Virus record (IMG/VR): IMGVR_UViG_3300020177_000013 | Location: 1 to 44,069 of that record | Origin: a virus | DNA: 44,069 bases | Direction: 5' to 3' (one strand) | In this document: positions 376 through 35,988 of the stretch, one piece after another | Layout of the letters: each line of letters starts with the position of its first letter | Numbering within the stretch: the first letter of the stretch is position 1 | The notes under the pieces: generated by a model | The model's database searches: none | Seen by the model: only the letters and a program-made list of their open reading frames with translations | Told to the model about the DNA's origin: nothing | Position numbers and translations under genes: made by a program

Positions 376-504
376 GATTTTCTGAAACTAAGTTCTAAAC
401 TCTATATATAAAATTTAACTGATTGATTGAAAGAAAAGTATCTATTTACTAGCATTTAAGTATTATGTGGTTTTAGGATTGTGGATTGTAAGTATACTGT
501 GATC

Positions 505-1164
505 TCATCCTTTTTCTTTATTTGCATTTAAAATAAAATACGCATCTATTAAATCATCCAAAGGCTTGGGGATCTTTTCTGAAAAGTCTTTACCTTGAGT
601 CCACTTCCACAATTCAGTTTTTCTCAGGTTCTTATCATTAAGTACATCATCTTGAAATGCCTTAGCCATATAGTGCTTGTTTGCATTACCTTTACCTGCT
701 AGCTTTTTAATATGAGAAGGTTGGTAAATTGATATCTTATTGACACCCCATGCATTAACTAGCCTATTTCTTAAGAATGTGTTATACTGTACAATGTCAA
801 TAAATGAATTACCTTTAGAACCGTAAGAGAACCCTTCAAGAGAAACTTTATGTGAGTCTGTTCCAAAGAGTGTTATTAAGATATTTCCAATAAGATCGGC
901 TATAGATTGACCGTCTGTCATTTTCTCTCGTTCTCTAAGTAAAAAATCCTTACTTGCTACATGCCTATAATAAGGAAAGCCTATTATGGTTTTACTGTCC
1001 ATCAATTCTTTATGAACTGAAAATGCTTTAGGTATTTTACGGCCTTCTTCATCCCAGATACGATTACCGTAATTAAAGAAAGTTATAAACTTATATTCAC
1101 CTTGATGGTTCTGTACACAAACACCTGGGCTATTGAGAGAAAAATCAATTCCTGTATAAATCAC
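505..1164 (-). CDS. RuvC-like Holliday-junction resolvase / RNase H-fold nuclease
   Basis: The 219-residue product has the acidic tetrad expected of RuvC-type nucleases: D7 in YTGIDFSLNSPG, E110 in VSLEGFSYG, and the D203/D204 plus D207 pair in KPLDDLIDAYF. Between them lies a basic, lysine-rich segment (HIKKLAGKGNANKH) like the DNA-contacting part of the family. The expected job is cutting branched DNA before or during packaging. T4 does this with the unrelated endonuclease VII, so a RuvC-type enzyme would be a non-orthologous replacement. The start is GTG, 10 bp after the stop of the gene upstream in transcription (1175-1525). No clear Shine-Dalgarno sequence precedes it. Family assignment is firm; the exact substrate is inferred. 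Confidence 0.8.
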   Translation of the reverse strand: MIYTGIDFSLNSPGVCVQNHQGEYKFITFFNYGNRIWDEEGRKIPKAFSVHKELMDSKTIIGFPYYRHVASKDFLLREREKMTDGQSIADLIGNILITLFGTDSHKVSLEGFSYGSKGNSFIDIVQYNTFLRNRLVNAWGVNKISIYQPSHIKKLAGKGNANKHYMAKAFQDDVLNDKNLRKTELWKWTQGKDFSEKIPKPLDDLIDAYFILNANKEKG

Positions 1165-1174
1165 TTAGATAAGA

Positions 1175-1525
1175 TTAAAGTCTCTTACCAAGAACCGCAC
1201 CTAATGCAGCTCCTACTAATCGACTGGTTAGAAGATCATATAGAGCACCCTTCTCAATTCCTAATACTTTAGCAATTGCTTTACCTACCGCCTTTCCTAA
1301 AGCAAAACCAGTAAGACCACCTAATACTGAACCTAAGATACCCTCATTAACAACTTCTTCCATTACTTCTTCAAGATCACGACCACTTTCATGTTCTTTC
1401 ATTATGCGATCAACCGCTTCATCGATTGCAGCTTCCTGCTCGTGGGTTAATGATTCGTTTAACAAAGCCTCAATATCTACTGAGTCATTATGGTTTTCGG
1501 TAAGGTAATCTTTAAATGTTTTCAT
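1175..1525 (-). CDS. Small protein with T4-type capsid-targeting N-terminus and glycine-rich hydrophobic helices
   Basis: The product has 116 residues. The start MKTFKDYLTE closely resembles the T4 capsid-targeting sequence of internal head proteins (MKTYQEFIAE, recalled from T4). It contains sites matching the T4 prohead-protease preference [L/I]-x-E: LTE at residues 8-10 and LNE at about 22-24. An acidic helical middle (residues 20-62) is followed by a Gly/Ala-rich hydrophobic tail, roughly residues 62-114, with small-residue spacing like a glycine zipper (GSVLGGLTGFALGKAVGKA). This could be an internal head or prohead-core protein; a membrane-active protein is the alternative. It has its own late-type promoter and an AAAGGA Shine-Dalgarno sequence, unusually clear for this genome. 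Confidence 0.55.
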   Translation of the reverse strand: MKTFKDYLTENHNDSVDIEALLNESLTHEQEAAIDEAVDRIMKEHESGRDLEEVMEEVVNEGILGSVLGGLTGFALGKAVGKAIAKVLGIEKGALYDLLTSRLVGAALGAVLGKRL

Positions 1526-1542
1526 TGTACTCTATTTCCTTT

Positions 1543-1554
1543 GTTTATATATTA
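1543..1554 (-). promoter_or_regulatory. Late-type promoter box
   Basis: The minus strand reads TAATATATAAAC, ending about 17 bases before the ATG at 1525. It fits the window-wide consensus [G/T]AATA[T/A]ATA[A/C], which resembles the T4 late promoter TATAAATA. It overlaps the TAA stop of the tail-tube-like gene, and AAAGGA lies between it and the start codon. Confidence 0.6.
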
Positions 1555-2106
1555 GGTAAGATTAACTGCTATATTAAGTATGTTATATGTGAAGTTAATA
1601 TCAAAGGTTTGGAATTCTACTGTATTGCTTGAAAAGTTTAAATCTAATGCACTTACACCGGTCATTATCATATCTTTTAGCTGAACGGTAACAAAAATAT
1701 TTCCTTCGCCGTCTAACATTTGCAAACCTACACCTTCTGGTACGAACGGATCTTTACCTGATAGCTTATAGTAATAGTCAAAAGTTTCAACAGCCATCCA
1801 ATAATTTATCCACCCATCAAATGCTTGCATGGTAACAGTTAAAGTTTTATCAAATAGCTCTTGTGTAGGTAAGCTACTTCTAAAGCTCCTAGTATTACCT
1901 GGGAAGTCATTTTGTGTAACAGGATCAAAAGATGGGCCTGGTAAATTCATTGACTGTATTCCGTAATTAAAATAGTCAATAGGTTCCTTTATAAGACCAC
2001 CAGGTATCCTATTTAGATAAGGCCTATACTTATTTGAAATTTCCTTTGGAATAAAAGTTCTAGGAAACTCAAACCTAAATTGATTATTTCTTGCGCTTAA
2101 TATCAT
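1552..2106 (-). CDS. Tail-tube-fold protein (gp19/gp54-like)
   Basis: The 184-residue product is close to T4 gp19 (163). The closing third, with GVSALDLNFSSNTVEFQTFD then an aromatic-rich strand, follows the same pattern as the end of gp19 (LQLDWDSNNEIQTFEVTLAL, recalled). The middle has LTVTMQAFDGWINYWMAVE, matching the tube-family strand that precedes a helix. An N-terminal FRFEFP strand and a PGPSFDP loop also fit. Tube-fold proteins stack as hexamers around the tail lumen. Because other tube-end proteins are encoded at 30184-35398, this could be the main tube subunit, a tube initiator or a terminator; sequence alone does not decide. It lies 3 bp downstream of the coiled-coil gene at 2110-3039. 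Confidence 0.6.
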   Translation of the reverse strand: MILSARNNQFRFEFPRTFIPKEISNKYRPYLNRIPGGLIKEPIDYFNYGIQSMNLPGPSFDPVTQNDFPGNTRSFRSSLPTQELFDKTLTVTMQAFDGWINYWMAVETFDYYYKLSGKDPFVPEGVGLQMLDGEGNIFVTVQLKDMIMTGVSALDLNFSSNTVEFQTFDINFTYNILNIAVNLT

Positions 2107-2109
2107 ATC

Positions 2110-3039
2110 TTACTCTGCTATGAACCCGCCGCTGCCGCTCCTAGATTGGCTAAGACCTGATGCAACATTTAATTTTCCTGTTACTGGAGTTCTTTTAGTA
2201 TTAAATTCCTGTAAATTATTAGCGGCCTGTTTGAAGTATCTTTTTTCTTTTTTCTTTGATGTTTGAATTTGTGCCTTTTTCCGTATTGCAGTAACCTGTT
2301 CCCTTTTCTTTTTATTTGCATCAGCTAAAGCCTGGGCTTCTTCCGCTTCCTTTAGAGCCAGTTCAGATTCTGCAGATCCTAGCTTATCGGTAAGAGTTGC
2401 TACTTCATTAGTGAGAGATAAGTTAGATGCTTCTAATGCTTGTATAGTTGCAATTTGTTCTTCATCCAAAGATATCATTTCAGCTAATTGAGTATTAAGC
2501 CTTTCTATCTCAGACTGTAATTTAGCAAGTTCTTGTGAATATAGCAATGCCTGTTCATTTAACTTAGAAGTCATTGTTTGTTTGGCAGCATCATTTAAGC
2601 CTAAGAATGTACCTGTGTACAAAACGCTTTCATCACTTACACCGCTTTCATCCTCCATTCTTGTAGAGATATAAAAGTTATTATTATCCAATGATAAAAT
2701 CTTCTTTGAATTTTCTTTATCAATTTTAAAGAGTACTTGACCCTGGGAAGGATCCACTTCTTGTACCCTTGTAAAATTAGGAATTCTTATTTCATCATTT
2801 TCACCAACAAAAACTAAAGTAAGAGTACCTACATTACTTAAGTCAATCGGCTTATCCACCAATTCACTATTTTCACCAGTCTCATCAAACAGCGTAAAGA
2901 TAATGTAATCATCAAATGGTGATATTCTAATAACACCATCACCCTGTGGTAACGGCTCGGCCGTAGGATTGAGAGTCGTAAACTTTTTATAGTATTCTCT
3001 TTCCTTTTTTGTTACTGATATGTTAGTCTGTACTGCCAT
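2110..3039 (-). CDS. Structural protein: beta domain plus long coiled coil
   Basis: The product has 309 residues and I do not recognise the family. Residues 1-150 look like a beta-sandwich (strands FDDYIIFTLFDETGE, GTLTLVFVGENDEIRIPNF, NNFYISTRMEDESGV). Residues about 155-245 form a clear heptad coiled coil rich in E, L, A and S. A basic stretch (KKAQIQTSKKKEKRYFKQ) follows, and the tail is Gly/Ser-rich. The start codon lies inside the end of the preceding gene (17 bp overlap, different frame), implying coupled translation. Its position among tail genes suggests a trimeric or dimeric virion appendage such as a fibre shaft or neck whisker. That role is inference from coiled coil and context. 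Confidence 0.55.
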   Translation of the reverse strand: MAVQTNISVTKKEREYYKKFTTLNPTAEPLPQGDGVIRISPFDDYIIFTLFDETGENSELVDKPIDLSNVGTLTLVFVGENDEIRIPNFTRVQEVDPSQGQVLFKIDKENSKKILSLDNNNFYISTRMEDESGVSDESVLYTGTFLGLNDAAKQTMTSKLNEQALLYSQELAKLQSEIERLNTQLAEMISLDEEQIATIQALEASNLSLTNEVATLTDKLGSAESELALKEAEEAQALADANKKKREQVTAIRKKAQIQTSKKKEKRYFKQAANNLQEFNTKRTPVTGKLNVASGLSQSRSGSGGFIAE

Positions 3040-4399
3040 CGTCTTCGGTTAATGTTTGTATTTTTGCTGGTGAAATTGCAGCCTTTACATTTAATCTATC
3101 CCTAAATGAAGTAACATACTTGGTCTTAACTACTAATTGCTCTACAATTTTTTCTGATGTTTCCCCTGGTCTAGTTCCAGAATTTCCATTATTAACTATG
3201 ATGTTACTTCCATCATCTTTAGATATCTGATTATAGACATTTGCAACTGTAGGTACTACACCTAAGTTTATCTTCATTAATCTTCTTCCGTATTTCTTAA
3301 CATCAAATGAAGTTAAATTTGCTTGTTTAATTATCTGTGTATTATCAGCTCTATTATAAAGTCTTAATAAGTAATTTATTGAAAAGGATGCAGCAATTGA
3401 ACTATTTAGTACAATAGGTCTAAATAGGATAGGATTATCAAAGTTTGTGGTTTGTGTATATACCTGAGTACTGGTTTTGGTAAAGTTAGTACCTATCTGT
3501 TCACTTACATTAATTTCATGGAATACAACATAGTCACCACCTGATGAATTAAGTTGTGCAATGAAATTAGAAAAAGTAGAACCGGTCACCATCCCAGTTA
3601 GCTCAAAGTAATCTCCACTATCCGATTCAACCACACTTGCATAAAGATCATCATAGATGTCTCTGTTTGCAATAGTAACTGAATTAATTTCTTCTACATT
3701 ATAATAGCTATAACTGTTTTCAACTATAGTTTCATAAATCCCAGTAGCCTTAAGTGTAATAGTAGGAGTACCTAAAAAGCCTTGTCCTTCTGTTAACTTA
3801 TAACCTAGACCGTTAGGTACAGCATTATTAAATCCATTATTCATAAAGTAAAGAGAAGGTACACGCCATTCAATATAAGTAGCATATAACTTGTCATTAA
3901 TTAGAATTGGATCAGGATTAAATACAGGTGTATCCGTCTTTAAGAAATTTATAGACGATAAGTTTAGCATCTTACCATCTCTTCTAGGAACTAGTGTTTC
4001 AAAAATAATTCCATCAAATCCAGTAAAGCTAAATCCTGAAATAAAATGGACCCTTATCTTATCATATGCAATCAGCTGCTGTGGGCTAAAAGATTGTAAA
4101 AGACTTGCACTATCTGTTAAGAGTGGGTCAAAATCATTATAAGGAACACCTATGTCAGTATCTAAATAAGCATACTGTGTTTTATTTTCATTGATGGCAG
4201 CTACAGATATATCACGATAGTTACCCATCTCAGCTGCAACCGCATCAGTATTAAATAAGTAACTACCACCCGTATGACCATCTCTCATGATCTCAATAGG
4301 GTATGTTGCTGTACTAAACTCTGTTGGATTAGACTGGCTAGTGTAAATATACTCAATAAGTATACCGTCTGATATTTGTATAAACTTAGATGATTCCAT
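3023..4399 (-). CDS. Unknown virion structural protein
   Basis: The 458-residue product is not recognised. It is rich in N, T, S, Y and alternating hydrophobic residues, typical of beta-rich tail or neck proteins. Recognisable pieces include an N-terminal ISDGILIEYIYTSQ strand pair, a central KATGIYETIVENSY stretch and a C-terminal basic segment FRDRLNVKAAISPAKI. There is no signal peptide, membrane segment or enzyme motif. It overlaps the coiled-coil gene by 17 bp, and the two probably act together. The box at 4406-4415 would lie only six bases before this start. Confidence 0.5.
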   Translation of the reverse strand: MESSKFIQISDGILIEYIYTSQSNPTEFSTATYPIEIMRDGHTGGSYLFNTDAVAAEMGNYRDISVAAINENKTQYAYLDTDIGVPYNDFDPLLTDSASLLQSFSPQQLIAYDKIRVHFISGFSFTGFDGIIFETLVPRRDGKMLNLSSINFLKTDTPVFNPDPILINDKLYATYIEWRVPSLYFMNNGFNNAVPNGLGYKLTEGQGFLGTPTITLKATGIYETIVENSYSYYNVEEINSVTIANRDIYDDLYASVVESDSGDYFELTGMVTGSTFSNFIAQLNSSGGDYVVFHEINVSEQIGTNFTKTSTQVYTQTTNFDNPILFRPIVLNSSIAASFSINYLLRLYNRADNTQIIKQANLTSFDVKKYGRRLMKINLGVVPTVANVYNQISKDDGSNIIVNNGNSGTRPGETSEKIVEQLVVKTKYVTSFRDRLNVKAAISPAKIQTLTEDDGSTD

Positions 4400-4405
4400 T
4401 CTAAC

Positions 4406-4415
4406 TATTTATTTA
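4406..4415 (-). promoter_or_regulatory. Possible late-type promoter box, weak
   Basis: The minus strand reads TAAATAAATA, overlapping the TAA stop of the gene at 4413-5183. It contains AATAAATA but lacks the usual G or T first base. It lies so close to the start at 4399 that transcription would begin almost at the ATG. It may simply be AT-rich sequence. Confidence 0.25.
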
Positions 4416-5183
4416 CCATTGCAAAAACTTAGGAGTATAACCTAGACCTATACCTACATACGGTGTAAATCCATTGCTGCCATACCCAACGCCTAGCTGT
4501 AATCCAATGCCTAATGTTTTTCTATTTTGTTTTTGGAGATCTAAAAAACCTTTACTCGTTTGGTCTATTAGTATTCCTTGTGCGCTATTAAAAGTTGTTC
4601 CTGGGTAATCAGTTTCAAGATTTACAAAAACCTCTTTGGTTTCTCTATCTCTCAATATAGAAGCAGTTAACCAAATGTTCTGGTTAAGATCAATAGTAGC
4701 ATTACCTAGATCTATTGTACTGTCATGTGCTTCATAAGGTACAATAATACCAATCTCTCTAGAGCTATTACCCCAAGTAGCAGAGTCCTTAATTTGAAAT
4801 GCTGAACTAAAATTACCAATGATAGTATCAACCACGGTAACAGGTACTTCAACAATAACCTCCTTAATAACAGTCTTGGTTTCTATTATTGTAATAGGTG
4901 GTTTATTTTTTTCATACTCAAGTGTTTTCCCTAGCTCATCAATAGTTAAGGTTAGTGCCATGATCTCAGCTTCAGCATTACCCTTCTCATTAATGTAGTT
5001 TTCAATTTCATCCAGTGAAGCTTTCCAATTATTCTCTATTCTTGTAGCTTCTCCTTTAGCTTCAGTCGTAGCTTGACACTGTCTTAAAAACAAAATACAT
5101 AGCACAACAATACCACCTAGTAAAAACATTCTAGTATTTTTAGGATCAGTAATTACGCTTAATATGTTTTTAAGTATTATCAT
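4413..5183 (-). CDS. Membrane-anchored protein with coiled coil and outer-membrane-like C-terminus (candidate spanin)
   Basis: The product has 256 residues. Residues 19-34 (MFLLGGIVVLCILFLR) form one transmembrane segment. A coiled-coil stretch spans about residues 45-95, then a V/I-rich linker and a beta-rich C-terminus ending GFTPYVGIGLGYTPKFLQW. The terminal aromatic residue and the G-x-G-x-Y strand pattern resemble outer-membrane beta strands and phage proteins I associate with Bacteroidota hosts (DUF6808-like, recalled and not verified). An inner-membrane anchor plus an outer-membrane-like end across a coiled coil is what a spanin-type lysis protein would look like, so that role is plausible but unproven. 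The ATGA junction with the upstream coiled-coil gene at 5180-5422 suggests a coupled pair. Confidence 0.55.
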   Translation of the reverse strand: MIILKNILSVITDPKNTRMFLLGGIVVLCILFLRQCQATTEAKGEATRIENNWKASLDEIENYINEKGNAEAEIMALTLTIDELGKTLEYEKNKPPITIIETKTVIKEVIVEVPVTVVDTIIGNFSSAFQIKDSATWGNSSREIGIIVPYEAHDSTIDLGNATIDLNQNIWLTASILRDRETKEVFVNLETDYPGTTFNSAQGILIDQTSKGFLDLQKQNRKTLGIGLQLGVGYGSNGFTPYVGIGLGYTPKFLQW

Positions 5184-25429: not shown

Positions 25430-25430
25430 G

Positions 25431-25457
25431 GAGAATATTCTTTTATTATATATTCTC
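25431..25457 (-). promoter_or_regulatory. Hairpin overlapping a late promoter, directly before the gp25-like start
   Basis: A perfect 8-bp inverted repeat: minus-strand arms GAGAATAT (25450-25457) and ATATTCTC (25431-25438), loop 11 bases. The box GAATATATAAT (25445-25455) starts in the 5' arm. The 3' arm ends one base before the ATG at 25429. A transcript initiated from the box would start inside the loop and could not form the stem; a read-through transcript could. Confidence 0.6.
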
Positions 25458-25484
25458 TACATTTTTTGAGGGTCTTAGATTATA

Positions 25485-27638: not shown

Positions 27639-27677
27639 TTTATCCTGATTTGTTTATATATTCCAAACCAGGATAAA
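27639..27677 (-). promoter_or_regulatory. Hairpin with the late promoter as its loop, hiding the amidoligase Shine-Dalgarno sequence
   Basis: An almost perfect 14-bp stem: 9 bp pairing 27639-27647 with 27669-27677, a G-U wobble (48/68), then 4 bp (49-52 with 64-67). The 11-base loop (27653-27663) is exactly the promoter box GAATATATAAA on the minus strand. The 3' arm CAGGATAAA contains AGGA and ends one base before the ATG at 27637. RNA entering from the S1 gene would sequester AGGA; RNA started at the box would not. Confidence 0.7.
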
Positions 27678-28878: not shown

Positions 28879-28890
28879 GATTATATATTA
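28879..28890 (-). promoter_or_regulatory. Late-type promoter box
   Basis: The minus strand reads TAATATATAATC, 26 bases before the S1-like ATG at 28852. A second TATAATC follows immediately (direct repeat). The leader after it is A-rich (AATAAAAAATAA) with no Shine-Dalgarno sequence. Confidence 0.6.
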
Positions 28891-33601: not shown

Positions 33602-35398
33602 TTACGAGTCTATCATCATACTAACCAGATTAGAAGTATATGCAGCATCATCATCGGTGAAAATGTTTGCATTTGATTGCTTCTTAATGTTAGATATTTT
33701 ATCATTTTTTATATCAGCAGCTTGATTCCCTTGTGTAGGGGATAAGCTAACGTTACCAGCCTTAACCGATCCGTATGTTGCTACATCTTGTCCTGCTAGG
33801 TTAAGAATATCTTCTTCGCCTGCAGCAGATGCATATATTCTACCACGCCCAGCATTAAACATATTTTCTATATCACCTTTATCTCTAGGCTTACCGTGTT
33901 TAAGGGTTACTTCAAATTTAACCTCCATCGGAAAATCATCATATCCTAAACCATGTCCTAGAGTCATAGTAGCATTATCACAGAACATATTACCCATCAT
34001 AACAATTGGATTAAGAGGATTTCCCACAGTTACATGCCAATCGCCAGTAGGCTCTCCGCTTACAAAGGTTTTAGTAGCTTGTGTACCTGAAACAGCTCCT
34101 ACATTTTCACTTAAGAATCCACCTAACATGTTACCTAATAATGTTTTACCAACTTTAAGTAAACCATCTAATCCATTTTCTAAATTAAATTCACCGGTAC
34201 CTCCACCGAATACATTTTTAAAACCAGTCTCCACATCAGTAACAACACTTCCAATATAACCGCTAAAGTCACCTTGCTTAAGTTTATTAATATCACCAAA
34301 CTGACTGGCAACGGCACCTGCACTACCATAGTACCTTTGGCCACCACCAAAGAATTGACCGTTATTATAAGTCATGGTTAACATATTACTTATAATATCA
34401 ATCATTGCAATTTTAGGATTAACATAGTTAAGAGATTTGAGCTCATATTCAAAATTAAGCTTCATATCTTGACTAAAGTTTAAACCTCTATCCCTAATAT
34501 TAGTTTTATTAACAACATTAACAGGACCTATTACAAAGTTAGCATAAGTAGTTCCTAGCTGATCACCGGTACTATTTAACTGACTTGCAAATTTTTGTCT
34601 TGAACTAATTCCTTTGAACGCATCAGCGGTTGCTCTACCAATACCTCCCATCTTACTATAAAAAGGCTGCTGTGTATATCCACCATCACCACTGTCTACG
34701 GATTCCATCTCATTGGTGATTTCTTTATAGGTTAAACCATAAGACATGGTTAAGAGGTCTTCTAATTTATTACCAGCCTTTTCTCCCATATAAGTAACTG
34801 CAGTTACACCTGCTGTTTGCGTTGCATCAACTGCCTCAGAGGTAGTAGCGGTATTGCCATCTTTTGAACCTGGTGTTTTACTTAGGTCAAAAATATTGTC
34901 TTCTACAGGAACTGGGAATCTTCTTAGCGTAACTAAATGATTTACAGGAATCTGCTTATAGTATTTATTGTATAAAAAGTCCTGTGGCTTATATGATATT
35001 CTTGGATAGTTTTCATTATAGAATTCCATCATCTTTGCAATGGATATATTCTTTGCATCAGTTCCACCCATTAATGAATTATTGGGGCTATCAAAAAAGT
35101 CTTTACTAACATCACCGGTTAAACCACCATACATACCTCTGAAATTAAATAGAGCAAACCTATTAAATATAGATCTAGGTATTTCAATGTTTTGCATACC
35201 CTCAGAAACACCAAACTGGTCAGGGAGTGCCCTACCTGAAAAAAACGTCTTAGCAGTTTCTAGCTCTATTTCATGAGCCATGCCAACAGACTCCCCACCA
35301 TAAACTCCTAATCTAACCGCACTGGGCGAATTAGGGTTAGGTGGAGTATTTGCATTTACACTACTATTACTTAAAGTTTCGGTCTTGTATGATGACAT
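33602..35398 (-). CDS. Baseplate/tube-proximal structural protein (598 aa)
   Basis: The exact family is not certain. Residues about 150-175 (VNHLVTLRRFPVPVEDNIFD) and the block NPLNPIVMMGNMFCDNATMT, then FPMEVKFEVTLKHGKPRDKG with NMFNAGRGRIY, recall phage tube-end or baseplate proteins. The rest is Gly/Asn-rich. Its promoter carries 24 bases identical to the one at 42035-42058. The start MSSYKTETLS follows a C-rich leader without a Shine-Dalgarno sequence. It is the first gene of a closely coupled hub block (35398 down to 31578), which suggests it is assembled together with the LysM and gp27-like proteins. Confidence 0.55.
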   Translation of the reverse strand: MSSYKTETLSNSSVNANTPPNPNSPSAVRLGVYGGESVGMAHEIELETAKTFFSGRALPDQFGVSEGMQNIEIPRSIFNRFALFNFRGMYGGLTGDVSKDFFDSPNNSLMGGTDAKNISIAKMMEFYNENYPRISYKPQDFLYNKYYKQIPVNHLVTLRRFPVPVEDNIFDLSKTPGSKDGNTATTSEAVDATQTAGVTAVTYMGEKAGNKLEDLLTMSYGLTYKEITNEMESVDSGDGGYTQQPFYSKMGGIGRATADAFKGISSRQKFASQLNSTGDQLGTTYANFVIGPVNVVNKTNIRDRGLNFSQDMKLNFEYELKSLNYVNPKIAMIDIISNMLTMTYNNGQFFGGGQRYYGSAGAVASQFGDINKLKQGDFSGYIGSVVTDVETGFKNVFGGGTGEFNLENGLDGLLKVGKTLLGNMLGGFLSENVGAVSGTQATKTFVSGEPTGDWHVTVGNPLNPIVMMGNMFCDNATMTLGHGLGYDDFPMEVKFEVTLKHGKPRDKGDIENMFNAGRGRIYASAAGEEDILNLAGQDVATYGSVKAGNVSLSPTQGNQAADIKNDKISNIKKQSNANIFTDDDAAYTSNLVSMMIDS

Positions 35399-35406
35399 AT
35401 AGGGAG

Positions 35407-35430
35407 ACTATTTTTTGTATATATTCAGCC
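35407..35430 (-). promoter_or_regulatory. Late-type promoter, copy A of a 24-bp duplicated element
   Basis: The minus strand contains GAATATATACAAAAAATAGT preceded by GGCT. All 24 bases are identical to 42035-42058. The element spans the TGA stop of the gene at 35425-35988 and ends eight bases before the ATG at 35398. Confidence 0.65.
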
Positions 35431-35988
35431 TAAGCTGTTTAGATACTTATCAATGTCAATATCTCCTTTTTGGAATTTATCAGTCCATCCTTTTTTAAAC
35501 CGTACATCAAATTCTTGTGTACTATCAGTTGATAAAGAACCCTTAAAAAATGGCCTAGCTGAAGTCTCTCTAATTTCTTTAAGATTTTTTGATATGATAT
35601 AAAACTGAACCTTTTCAAACAGATCCTTTAAATCATTCTTAGTCTTTTTACACATCACAGATTCTACAATTACATAAAATCTTTCACGGTCTTTTTCGTC
35701 AAACCGCTCCTCTAAAGATCGTGTATTTGTAAAGTCTTCTTTTTTAAGTGGCATCTTTCTAGCACGGTTATCAAACTCATATTTAAAATTCATATCAAAG
35801 AAATACCTTTTTAGATATTTCATGTTATCATACATTTTAATAATGCGAATCTTATAGAGTGGATTAACTGGATCCCATGATGTATCTACAATAAGACCTT
35901 TTATTGGCAATAAAATATTAGGCCTACTATGAGATGATAGTAGGCAGTATACAGTTTGACCCTTTGTAAATATGCGGTGTGCTTTCAT
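35425..35988 (-). CDS. Unknown protein (187 aa)
   Basis: Not recognised. The N-terminal 60 residues suggest a small beta barrel (KGQTVYCLLSSHSRPNILLP, then DPVNPLYKIRIIKMYDN). The remainder is charged and helical (RERFYVIVESVMCKK, DLKDLFEKVQFYIIS). There are no enzyme motifs and no signal peptide. It is coupled to the upstream gene by an ATGA junction at 35985-35988. It belongs to a run of five small genes between the collagen fibre and the hub block, a position where T4-like phages often keep baseplate assembly factors; that is inference. Confidence 0.5.
   Translation of the reverse strand: MKAHRIFTKGQTVYCLLSSHSRPNILLPIKGLIVDTSWDPVNPLYKIRIIKMYDNMKYLKRYFFDMNFKYEFDNRARKMPLKKEDFTNTRSLEERFDEKDRERFYVIVESVMCKKTKNDLKDLFEKVQFYIISKNLKEIRETSARPFFKGSLSTDSTQEFDVRFKKGWTDKFQKGDIDIDKYLNSLG

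Follow-up and report, generated by a model that had tools for sequence, protein, structure and literature searches.

The window analysed here, i.e., the whole 44,069-nt stretch of viral DNA (IMG/VR record IMGVR_UViG_3300020177_000013), encodes on its minus strand a protein with S1 RNA-binding domains and, directly downstream, an amidoligase-like protein. The gap between both genes carries an inverted repeat that encloses a promoter-like box and runs up to the downstream start codon (Table 1). For the 432-aa downstream protein, the Pfam match to Amidoligase_2 is sub-threshold, reaching 21.3 bits versus a curated cut-off of 22.

Table 1. Features at and around the S1-amidoligase gap, in window coordinates.
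Feature	Position	Strand	Remarks and basis
5' arm TTTATCCTGGTTTG	27677-27664	-	two spacer bases after the S1 stop codon; sequence, fold, relatives
11-nt loop GAATATATAAA	27663-27653	-	contains the promoter-like box; sequence, fold
promoter-like box AATATATAA	27654-27662	-	within the loop; enriched upstream of ORFs
3' arm CAAATCAGGATAAA	27652-27639	-	followed by T, then ATG; sequence, fold
AGGA, earlier claimed as Shine-Dalgarno	27643-27646	-	within the 3' arm; family-wide conservation absent
ATG of the amidoligase-like gene	27637-27635	-	start kept in relatives
amidoligase-like gene, 432 aa	26339-27637	-	Pfam Amidoligase_2, E 2.8e-4
gene with S1 RNA-binding domains, 390 aa	27680-28852	-	Pfam PF00575, E 4.7e-21
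same-class box upstream of the S1 gene	28881-28889	-	sequence

The stem geometry given in a preliminary description of the locus is exact: 9 base pairs, a G-U wobble and 4 further pairs enclose an 11-base loop and leave a single base to the ATG. For the 63-nt minus-strand leader, an MFE of -17.1 kcal/mol is predicted. With regard to stems of 14 bp or more that contain no more than one G-U pair and a loop of 3-15 nt, this hairpin is the only one on both strands of the 44-kb window, and 200 dinucleotide shuffles of the minus strand show on average 0.065 stems of that class. The mRNA corresponds to the minus strand, and the plus-strand fold of the interval is less striking (z of -1.8). None of the 8 sources searched against Rfam (101,769 bases) gave a match at the gathering score. 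We also considered an intrinsic terminator for the S1 gene and rejected it, i.e., the terminator scan is negative at 27639-27677, there is no U run, and the stem is followed by T and the ATG.

The box within the loop recurs across the window. Nine AATATATA[AC] sites are found (1545-42053), every one on the minus, i.e., coding strand, and 8/9 are intergenic and located 13-28 nt 5' of a start codon. When the window, stretches of twelve relatives and 400 kb of LR756500 are taken together, 115 of 234 box occurrences have the ATG of an ORF (60 aa or longer) 10-25 nt downstream, where the count pools related genomes and includes G002, a near-copy of the window. At the same position, four comparison strings reach 1/200 (the reverse complement of the box), 3/160, 6/160 and 12/185, and three strings that overlap or resemble the box reach 33/115, 59/273 and 111/242. 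In the searched records, AATATATAA is strand-biased (e.g., 29 vs. 2 in G011 and 57 vs. 17 in LR756500); a backward-read control for the combination of box and ATG is frequently lower, yet equal in some records. In k-mer counts of upstream regions, the box ranks first in each group. The top 8-mers among close relatives (clade 1) are AATATATA and ATATATAA, each present in 91/621 leaders (34-fold enriched), the top 8-mer in the more distant clade 2 described below is GATATATA (34/323 leaders, 31-fold), and the top k-mer in LR756500 is again ATATATAA (45/413 leaders, 15-fold).

Boxes are often located about 13-20 nt before start codons, also at genes without hairpins. Since many of them leave only 13-20 nt to the ATG, transcription initiation would have to fall within this interval, and we infer from the sequence pattern that the box is a -10-type promoter element with a very short leader. 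Both the promoter identity of the motif and its start site are predictions in the following. Sigma-70 region 2 matches above the cut-off are present in 5/5 records searched; one phage is represented twice among these, by near-copies. In the relative G011, 23 genes are boxed. A PHROGs scan of 15 of them yielded four matches to portal, head maturation protease, tail tube or tail fibre, one to a family of unknown function and none for the remaining ten. Given these structural genes among the boxed ones, the box is probably late. Searches of open-licence papers gave no description of this element or of the box.

To assess the hairpin in close relatives, we used the best 80 of 94 confirmed loci of the close amidoligase scan. 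A usable start is available for 77 of them (in L061, L067 and L079 the start is cut), and 76 of these collapse to 30 distinct 53-nt contexts once duplicates are merged and L006, whose leader is cut, is left out. A hairpin around the box is significant in 24/30 contexts, i.e., an equal or better inverted repeat occurs in at most 2% of 2000 shuffles of the 5' flank. The other six show a weak or negative hairpin with the box intact (L036 with p 0.04; L023, L030, L040, L042 and L043 with p 0.07-0.92), such that the proposed block would be dispensable there. Two relatives have arms unlike those of the window that still pair: L077 (protein 70% identical) forms 14 bp between CATACCAGGTTTAA and TTAAACCTGGTATG, and L080 (65% identical) forms 13 bp. 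For the remaining sequences, we built a core alignment of 25 sequences (23 distinct), i.e., without L022, L077, L080 and the six weak contexts. Here, 79.6% of the cells pair in register vs. 28-52% in slid registers. In the close relatives, only about the inner 9-11 pairs are kept: 14-21 of the 23 distinct rows lack pairing at the outer three positions of the window's stem. Covariation is weak within this core: the inner pairs are almost invariant, the observed score is reached by 1/500 shuffles and the paired percentage by 39/500.

A broader amidoligase scan, from which we took the best 80 of 531 confirmed relatives, provides a second clade. Together with L301 and L303, this clade-2 set comprises 82 loci with 39 distinct leaders (counting L301). 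The protein of L303 is 44% identical to that of the window, and L301 is only 46% identical to L303. An S1 gene is located directly upstream in 81/82 loci, and the remaining one (L340) is cut at 52 nt. A fold with at least 7 pairs across the box is found in 36/39 distinct leaders, where the arms vary and the box, here GATATATA, is found in the 5' arm on its loop-proximal side. L301 has the box and an S1 gap of 85 nt, and the hairpin is absent. Still more distant are the huge phages L405-L408 with amidoligases of 32-34% identity, for which neither an S1 match within about 1.8 kb upstream nor a strong hairpin around a box was found; in L408, an A+U-rich stem (-8.4 kcal/mol) ends at the ATG. In LR756500, the S1 gene is about 1.3 kb upstream and no hairpin surrounds the box of the amidoligase gene. 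The earlier statement that the box forms the exact loop holds for the window and does not carry over to its relatives, given that most other clade-1 folds have loops of 10-15 nt and that the clade-2 box lies within the 5' arm. The exact placement is in part a by-product, since boxes are often found some 13-20 nt before the start codons of genes that have no hairpin.

We compared the pairing of each leader's own 5' and 3' halves with that of permuted halves. Own halves pair better than all of 5000 permutations for clade 1, both with all 34 distinct leaders and with the 28 that remain once the weak contexts are removed, and for clade 2 (n=38, without L301). The pairing, covariation and strand tests given here, the slid registers excepted, do not account for the tree. 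For nine other boxed gene families of 6-11 sequences each, eight do not show this behaviour (401-4720 of 5000 permutations are as good) and the ninth, a 598-aa gene, is intermediate (30/5000). Sample size was controlled with 10 amidoligase leaders from the same genomes as the control families, for which still 0/5000 permutations are as good. At the level of single sequences, the median fraction of swaps with a dissimilar partner that match the own pairing is 16-20%. Among the boxed leaders listed, 11 of 136 distinct ones reach a shuffle p of at most 0.01, and 8 of these 11 are amidoligase leaders.

For clade 2 (again without L301), 235 of 320 cells (73%) pair in register vs. 29-49% in six slid registers; if several ATAT[CT] anchors fitted, the best-pairing one was used, which favours the observed register. 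Neither the paired fraction nor the number of two-sided changes is reached by any of 2000 whole-arm shuffles, and the number of pair types is unremarkable (891/2000). When near-identical clade-2 sequences are compared, pairs 3, 4, 6 and 7 show compensated changes, with 604 single-sided breaks vs. 105 compensated changes when counted over sequence pairs, which are not independent. We dropped the comparison of G-U with A-C counts as proof of an RNA, since the in-register numbers (45 vs. 22, clade 2) are unremarkable against slid registers. With regard to strand, the sense RNA folds better than the antisense by on average 2.7 (clade 1) and 2.9 kcal/mol (clade 2), while dinucleotide shuffles give +1.3 and -0.1; the sense energy is below the antisense energy in 23/28 and 30/38 leaders, respectively.

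Conservation of pairing in relatives had been named beforehand as a check, and it is observed in 24/30 clade-1 contexts and, with changed arms, in clade 2, with none of 5000 permutations as good. With regard to the related expectation of compensatory arm changes, changed arms that still pair are seen in L077, L080 and clade 2; covariation is weak within the close clade, and in near-pair comparisons of clade 2 single-sided breaks outnumber the compensated changes. Judged by these sequence comparisons, the hairpin is an RNA element under selection.

Inverted repeats were also noticed at other boxed leaders. The leader of the 598-aa gene (35398-35450, minus strand) is the second-best candidate for arms that pair across the box, weaker than the amidoligase leader. 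At a baseplate-wedge-like gene (121 aa), the leader at 25430-25462 (minus strand) contains GAGAATAT...ATATTCTC, which encloses part of the box; G019 has AGAGAG...CTCTCT at this place, and the swap test of that leader gives 401/5000. When both strands of L204 (LR756500, 300001-320000) are considered, A+T-rich inverted repeats enclose the box in two leaders, each with an inverted-repeat score of 20 (p 0.22 and 0.10 by shuffling).

We next quantified accessibility of the amidoligase start by its opening cost, i.e., the predicted energy to free the start region from -14 to +13. For the window, RNA read through from the S1 gene has an opening cost of 16.1 kcal/mol, the highest read-through value of the 35 window genes, vs. 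3.0 kcal/mol for RNA starting 4-6 nt after the box. On average, the costs for read-through vs. box-started RNA are 12.7 vs. 2.4 kcal/mol for clade-1 hairpin leaders (n=24) and 11.4 vs. 3.1 kcal/mol for clade 2 (n=38, without L301). The six weak-hairpin leaders also lose opening cost when box-started (9.7 vs. 3.0-3.8 kcal/mol). In the predicted folds, a stable helix pairs the region just 5' of the start codon on read-through RNA. As earlier proposed, the 5' arm would be missing from box-started RNA, provided that transcription starts where predicted. The position of the box in both clades fits a promoter, with a predicted start site, whose RNA would leave the 5' arm behind.

The helix is tightly placed between both genes. 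The 5' arm begins 0-7 nt past the S1 stop in 26/30 clade-1 hairpins and 5-19 nt past it in 36/36 of clade 2. For the 3' arm, the distance between its end and the ATG is -3 to 5 nt in all 30 clade-1 hairpins and -3 to 4 nt in 32/36 of clade 2. If the S1 gene is directly upstream (gap of 40-59 nt), at least 7 pairs across the box are formed in 66/69 distinct contexts, including L042 and L043, which are weak in the flank-shuffle test. For the longer S1 gaps of L023, L030, L040 and L301, a hairpin of at least 7 bp across the box is found in 0/4. In three of these, a gene lies between S1 and amidoligase, with 191 aa in L023, at least 164 aa in L030 and 135 aa in L040; the gene insertion in L023/L030 and in L040 may itself have removed the 5' arm.

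The preliminary description had taken the AGGA in the 3' arm as the hidden Shine-Dalgarno (SD) sequence, a claim that did not stand. AGGA is present within the last 20 nt of 25/28 clade-1 hairpin leaders and absent from L077 and L080, and it occurs in 0/38 clade-2 and 0/6 weak-hairpin leaders. SD words are not enriched either: in clade 1, AGGA occurs in 26/621 leaders vs. 20.5 expected and GGAG in 5 vs. 5.65, i.e., at shuffled level, and in clade 2 AGGA occurs in 12/323 vs. 13.3 expected. LR756500 shows a slight excess of rare SD words (AGGAG 3/413 vs. 0.65). About half of the 20 nt 5' of the ATG are A. According to the predicted folds, the hidden part is an A-rich start region and not an SD site. 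The excerpts of two sources provide background, i.e., huge phages with possible S1 genes seldom show identifiable SD sequences (PMC7162821), and Bacteroidia ribosomes do not recognise SD sequences (PMC9976891).

Concerning the host, six of 50,697 phage records match the amidoligase, all of them uncultured huge phages. A baseplate protein matches 41 records, which include phages of Prevotella (15), Tenacibaculum (5), Chryseobacterium (2), Flavobacterium (1) and Bacteroides (1) as well as of Rhizobium (5), Sphingomonas (2) and Pseudomonas (1). These matches make a Bacteroidota host likely for these uncultured phages.

The hairpin, a pairing that is kept while the arms change, the folding preference of the mRNA strand and the promoter-like distribution of the box are supported by the sequences. 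From these, we consider it reasonably probable that the hairpin acts as a translational insulator, i.e., it silences the amidoligase on S1 read-through RNA while the RNA of the gene's own promoter escapes. Transcription through the S1-amidoligase gap would yield an RNA with the hairpin, and translation of the amidoligase on this read-through RNA would be silenced. RNA begun at the putative phage promoter, which is placed in the loop or next to it within the 5' arm, would be free of that arm and be translated. The amidoligase would hence be insulated from its upstream neighbour and controlled by its own promoter alone. Within this reading, the translation block, like any timing, is a prediction.

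Two alternatives are rather unlikely in our view, the first being translational coupling, where ribosomes finishing the S1 gene would unfold the hairpin such that both proteins are made from one RNA. RNA unfolding is an accepted coupling model (PMC12548453, excerpt), the S1 stop is close to the helix, and the hairpin fills the gap from stop to ATG, along with its presence in 66/69 distinct S1-adjacent contexts. We modelled a terminating ribosome for S1 gaps of 30-60 nt only, with assumed footprints of 9-15 nt. If 9, 12 or 15 nt are covered, the opening cost in clade 1 decreases from 12.4 to 6.9, 5.9 and 5.0 kcal/mol, respectively, while for clade 2 the corresponding values are 10.7, 9.2 and 7.3 kcal/mol, starting from 11.4 kcal/mol. 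Given these costs, coupling is possible in clade 1, whereas in clade 2 it would hardly be a sufficient explanation. It also leaves the amidoligase's own box unexplained.

The second one is the timing switch that had been put forward for this locus, and we regard it as no more probable than coupling. As in T4 gene e, early read-through RNA would be shut and late box-started RNA open. The anatomy is shared with T4 e and I-TevI (PMC3014915, PMC2988022; excerpts), and the structural genes among the boxed ones (4/15 scanned) indicate that the box is probably late. On the other hand, the S1 gene, i.e., the source of the read-through, has a same-class box in its own leader in the window. The same holds for 31/33 distinct S1 leaders of the close scan (counted without L143, whose gene is cut; the exceptions are L093 and L138/L139) and for 49/49 distinct complete S1 leaders of clade 2 (counted without L340, which lacks upstream DNA, and the incomplete L355). 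Read-through RNA from S1 is therefore expected in the same phase as the box RNA. With the nearest upstream promoter in the same class, the obvious read-through RNA is not expected to be early, and the early-closed, late-open part of the earlier proposal finds no support. The switch would need an early RNA across the junction, and no early promoter was identified upstream. Beside the box itself, clade-2 S1 leaders (e.g., L335 and L359) show a long conserved stretch around GATATATAATATGTTACACcTTTAATATAAAAATAAATG that far exceeds the box.

It is improbable, though compatible with the adjacency of hairpin and S1 gene (66/69 adjacent contexts, 0/4 otherwise), that the phage S1-domain protein binds and melts the hairpin and thereby licenses amidoligase translation on the shared RNA. 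If true, such a switch would operate in phages showing no sign of SD pairing. Even less can be said for a hairpin that serves the S1 message, e.g., as 3'-end stabiliser, processing or nuclease site, with incidental contact to the amidoligase start: its location directly after the S1 stop and its link to S1 adjacency would fit, but the 3' arm hugs the ATG (30/30 in clade 1, 32/36 in clade 2) and a terminator-like site was not found there, which makes this role very unlikely. Finally, a DNA dyad, i.e., a repressor operator or cruciform, is suggested by the inverted repeat overlapping the promoter box and is nevertheless highly implausible, because the fold of the mRNA-sense strand exceeds that of the antisense in stability beyond shuffled controls and because the arms change while the pairing stays, where a sequence-reading repressor would be expected to conserve the letters.

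If the insulator reading is true, concealing a plain start region suffices to silence a gene, and an element of 40-60 nt separates two neighbouring genes that are served by the same promoter class. The box furthermore supplies a candidate promoter motif of these phages, which environmental RNA data allow to be checked at once.

With regard to known systems, the proposed mechanism resembles the one described for T4 gene e and I-TevI, apart from the SD feature and a known early transcript. The preliminary description had pointed to T4 gene e, and a promoter-in-hairpin design is indeed reported there, and for I-TevI as well (PMC3014915, PMC2988022); for these and the following sources, we rely on excerpts. 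T4 soc and 49 are listed among the sequestering structures alongside gene e (PMC3014915). In gene e, as in the folds predicted here, a stem covers the translation start on a longer RNA (PMC3014915), and RNA from its late promoters begins too far downstream to include the 5' part of the stem, as we propose for the box. The differences are that gene e uses an SD sequence and that its longer RNA is early, whereas here SD words are not enriched and the upstream promoter is of the same class. Furthermore, gene e encodes a lysozyme, while we observe an amidoligase-like gene beside an S1 gene. The hairpins of I-TevI, I-TevII, I-TevIII, segB and mobE have a promoter (late for I-TevI) placed such that its transcripts cannot form the inhibitory structure (PMC2988022), as proposed for our locus; these are homing endonuclease genes of T4-like phages with SD sites, and the three I-Tev genes are intronic. 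Coupling by RNA unfolding likewise features an inhibitory structure at the downstream start just past the upstream stop, as predicted here, but the model has no internal promoter and the opening predicted for a terminating ribosome is small in clade 2 (PMC12548453 for the model). The insulator reading would extend the classical T4 idea, in which the RNA structure closing a gene contains a promoter, to a large group of uncultured phages that probably infect Bacteroidota.
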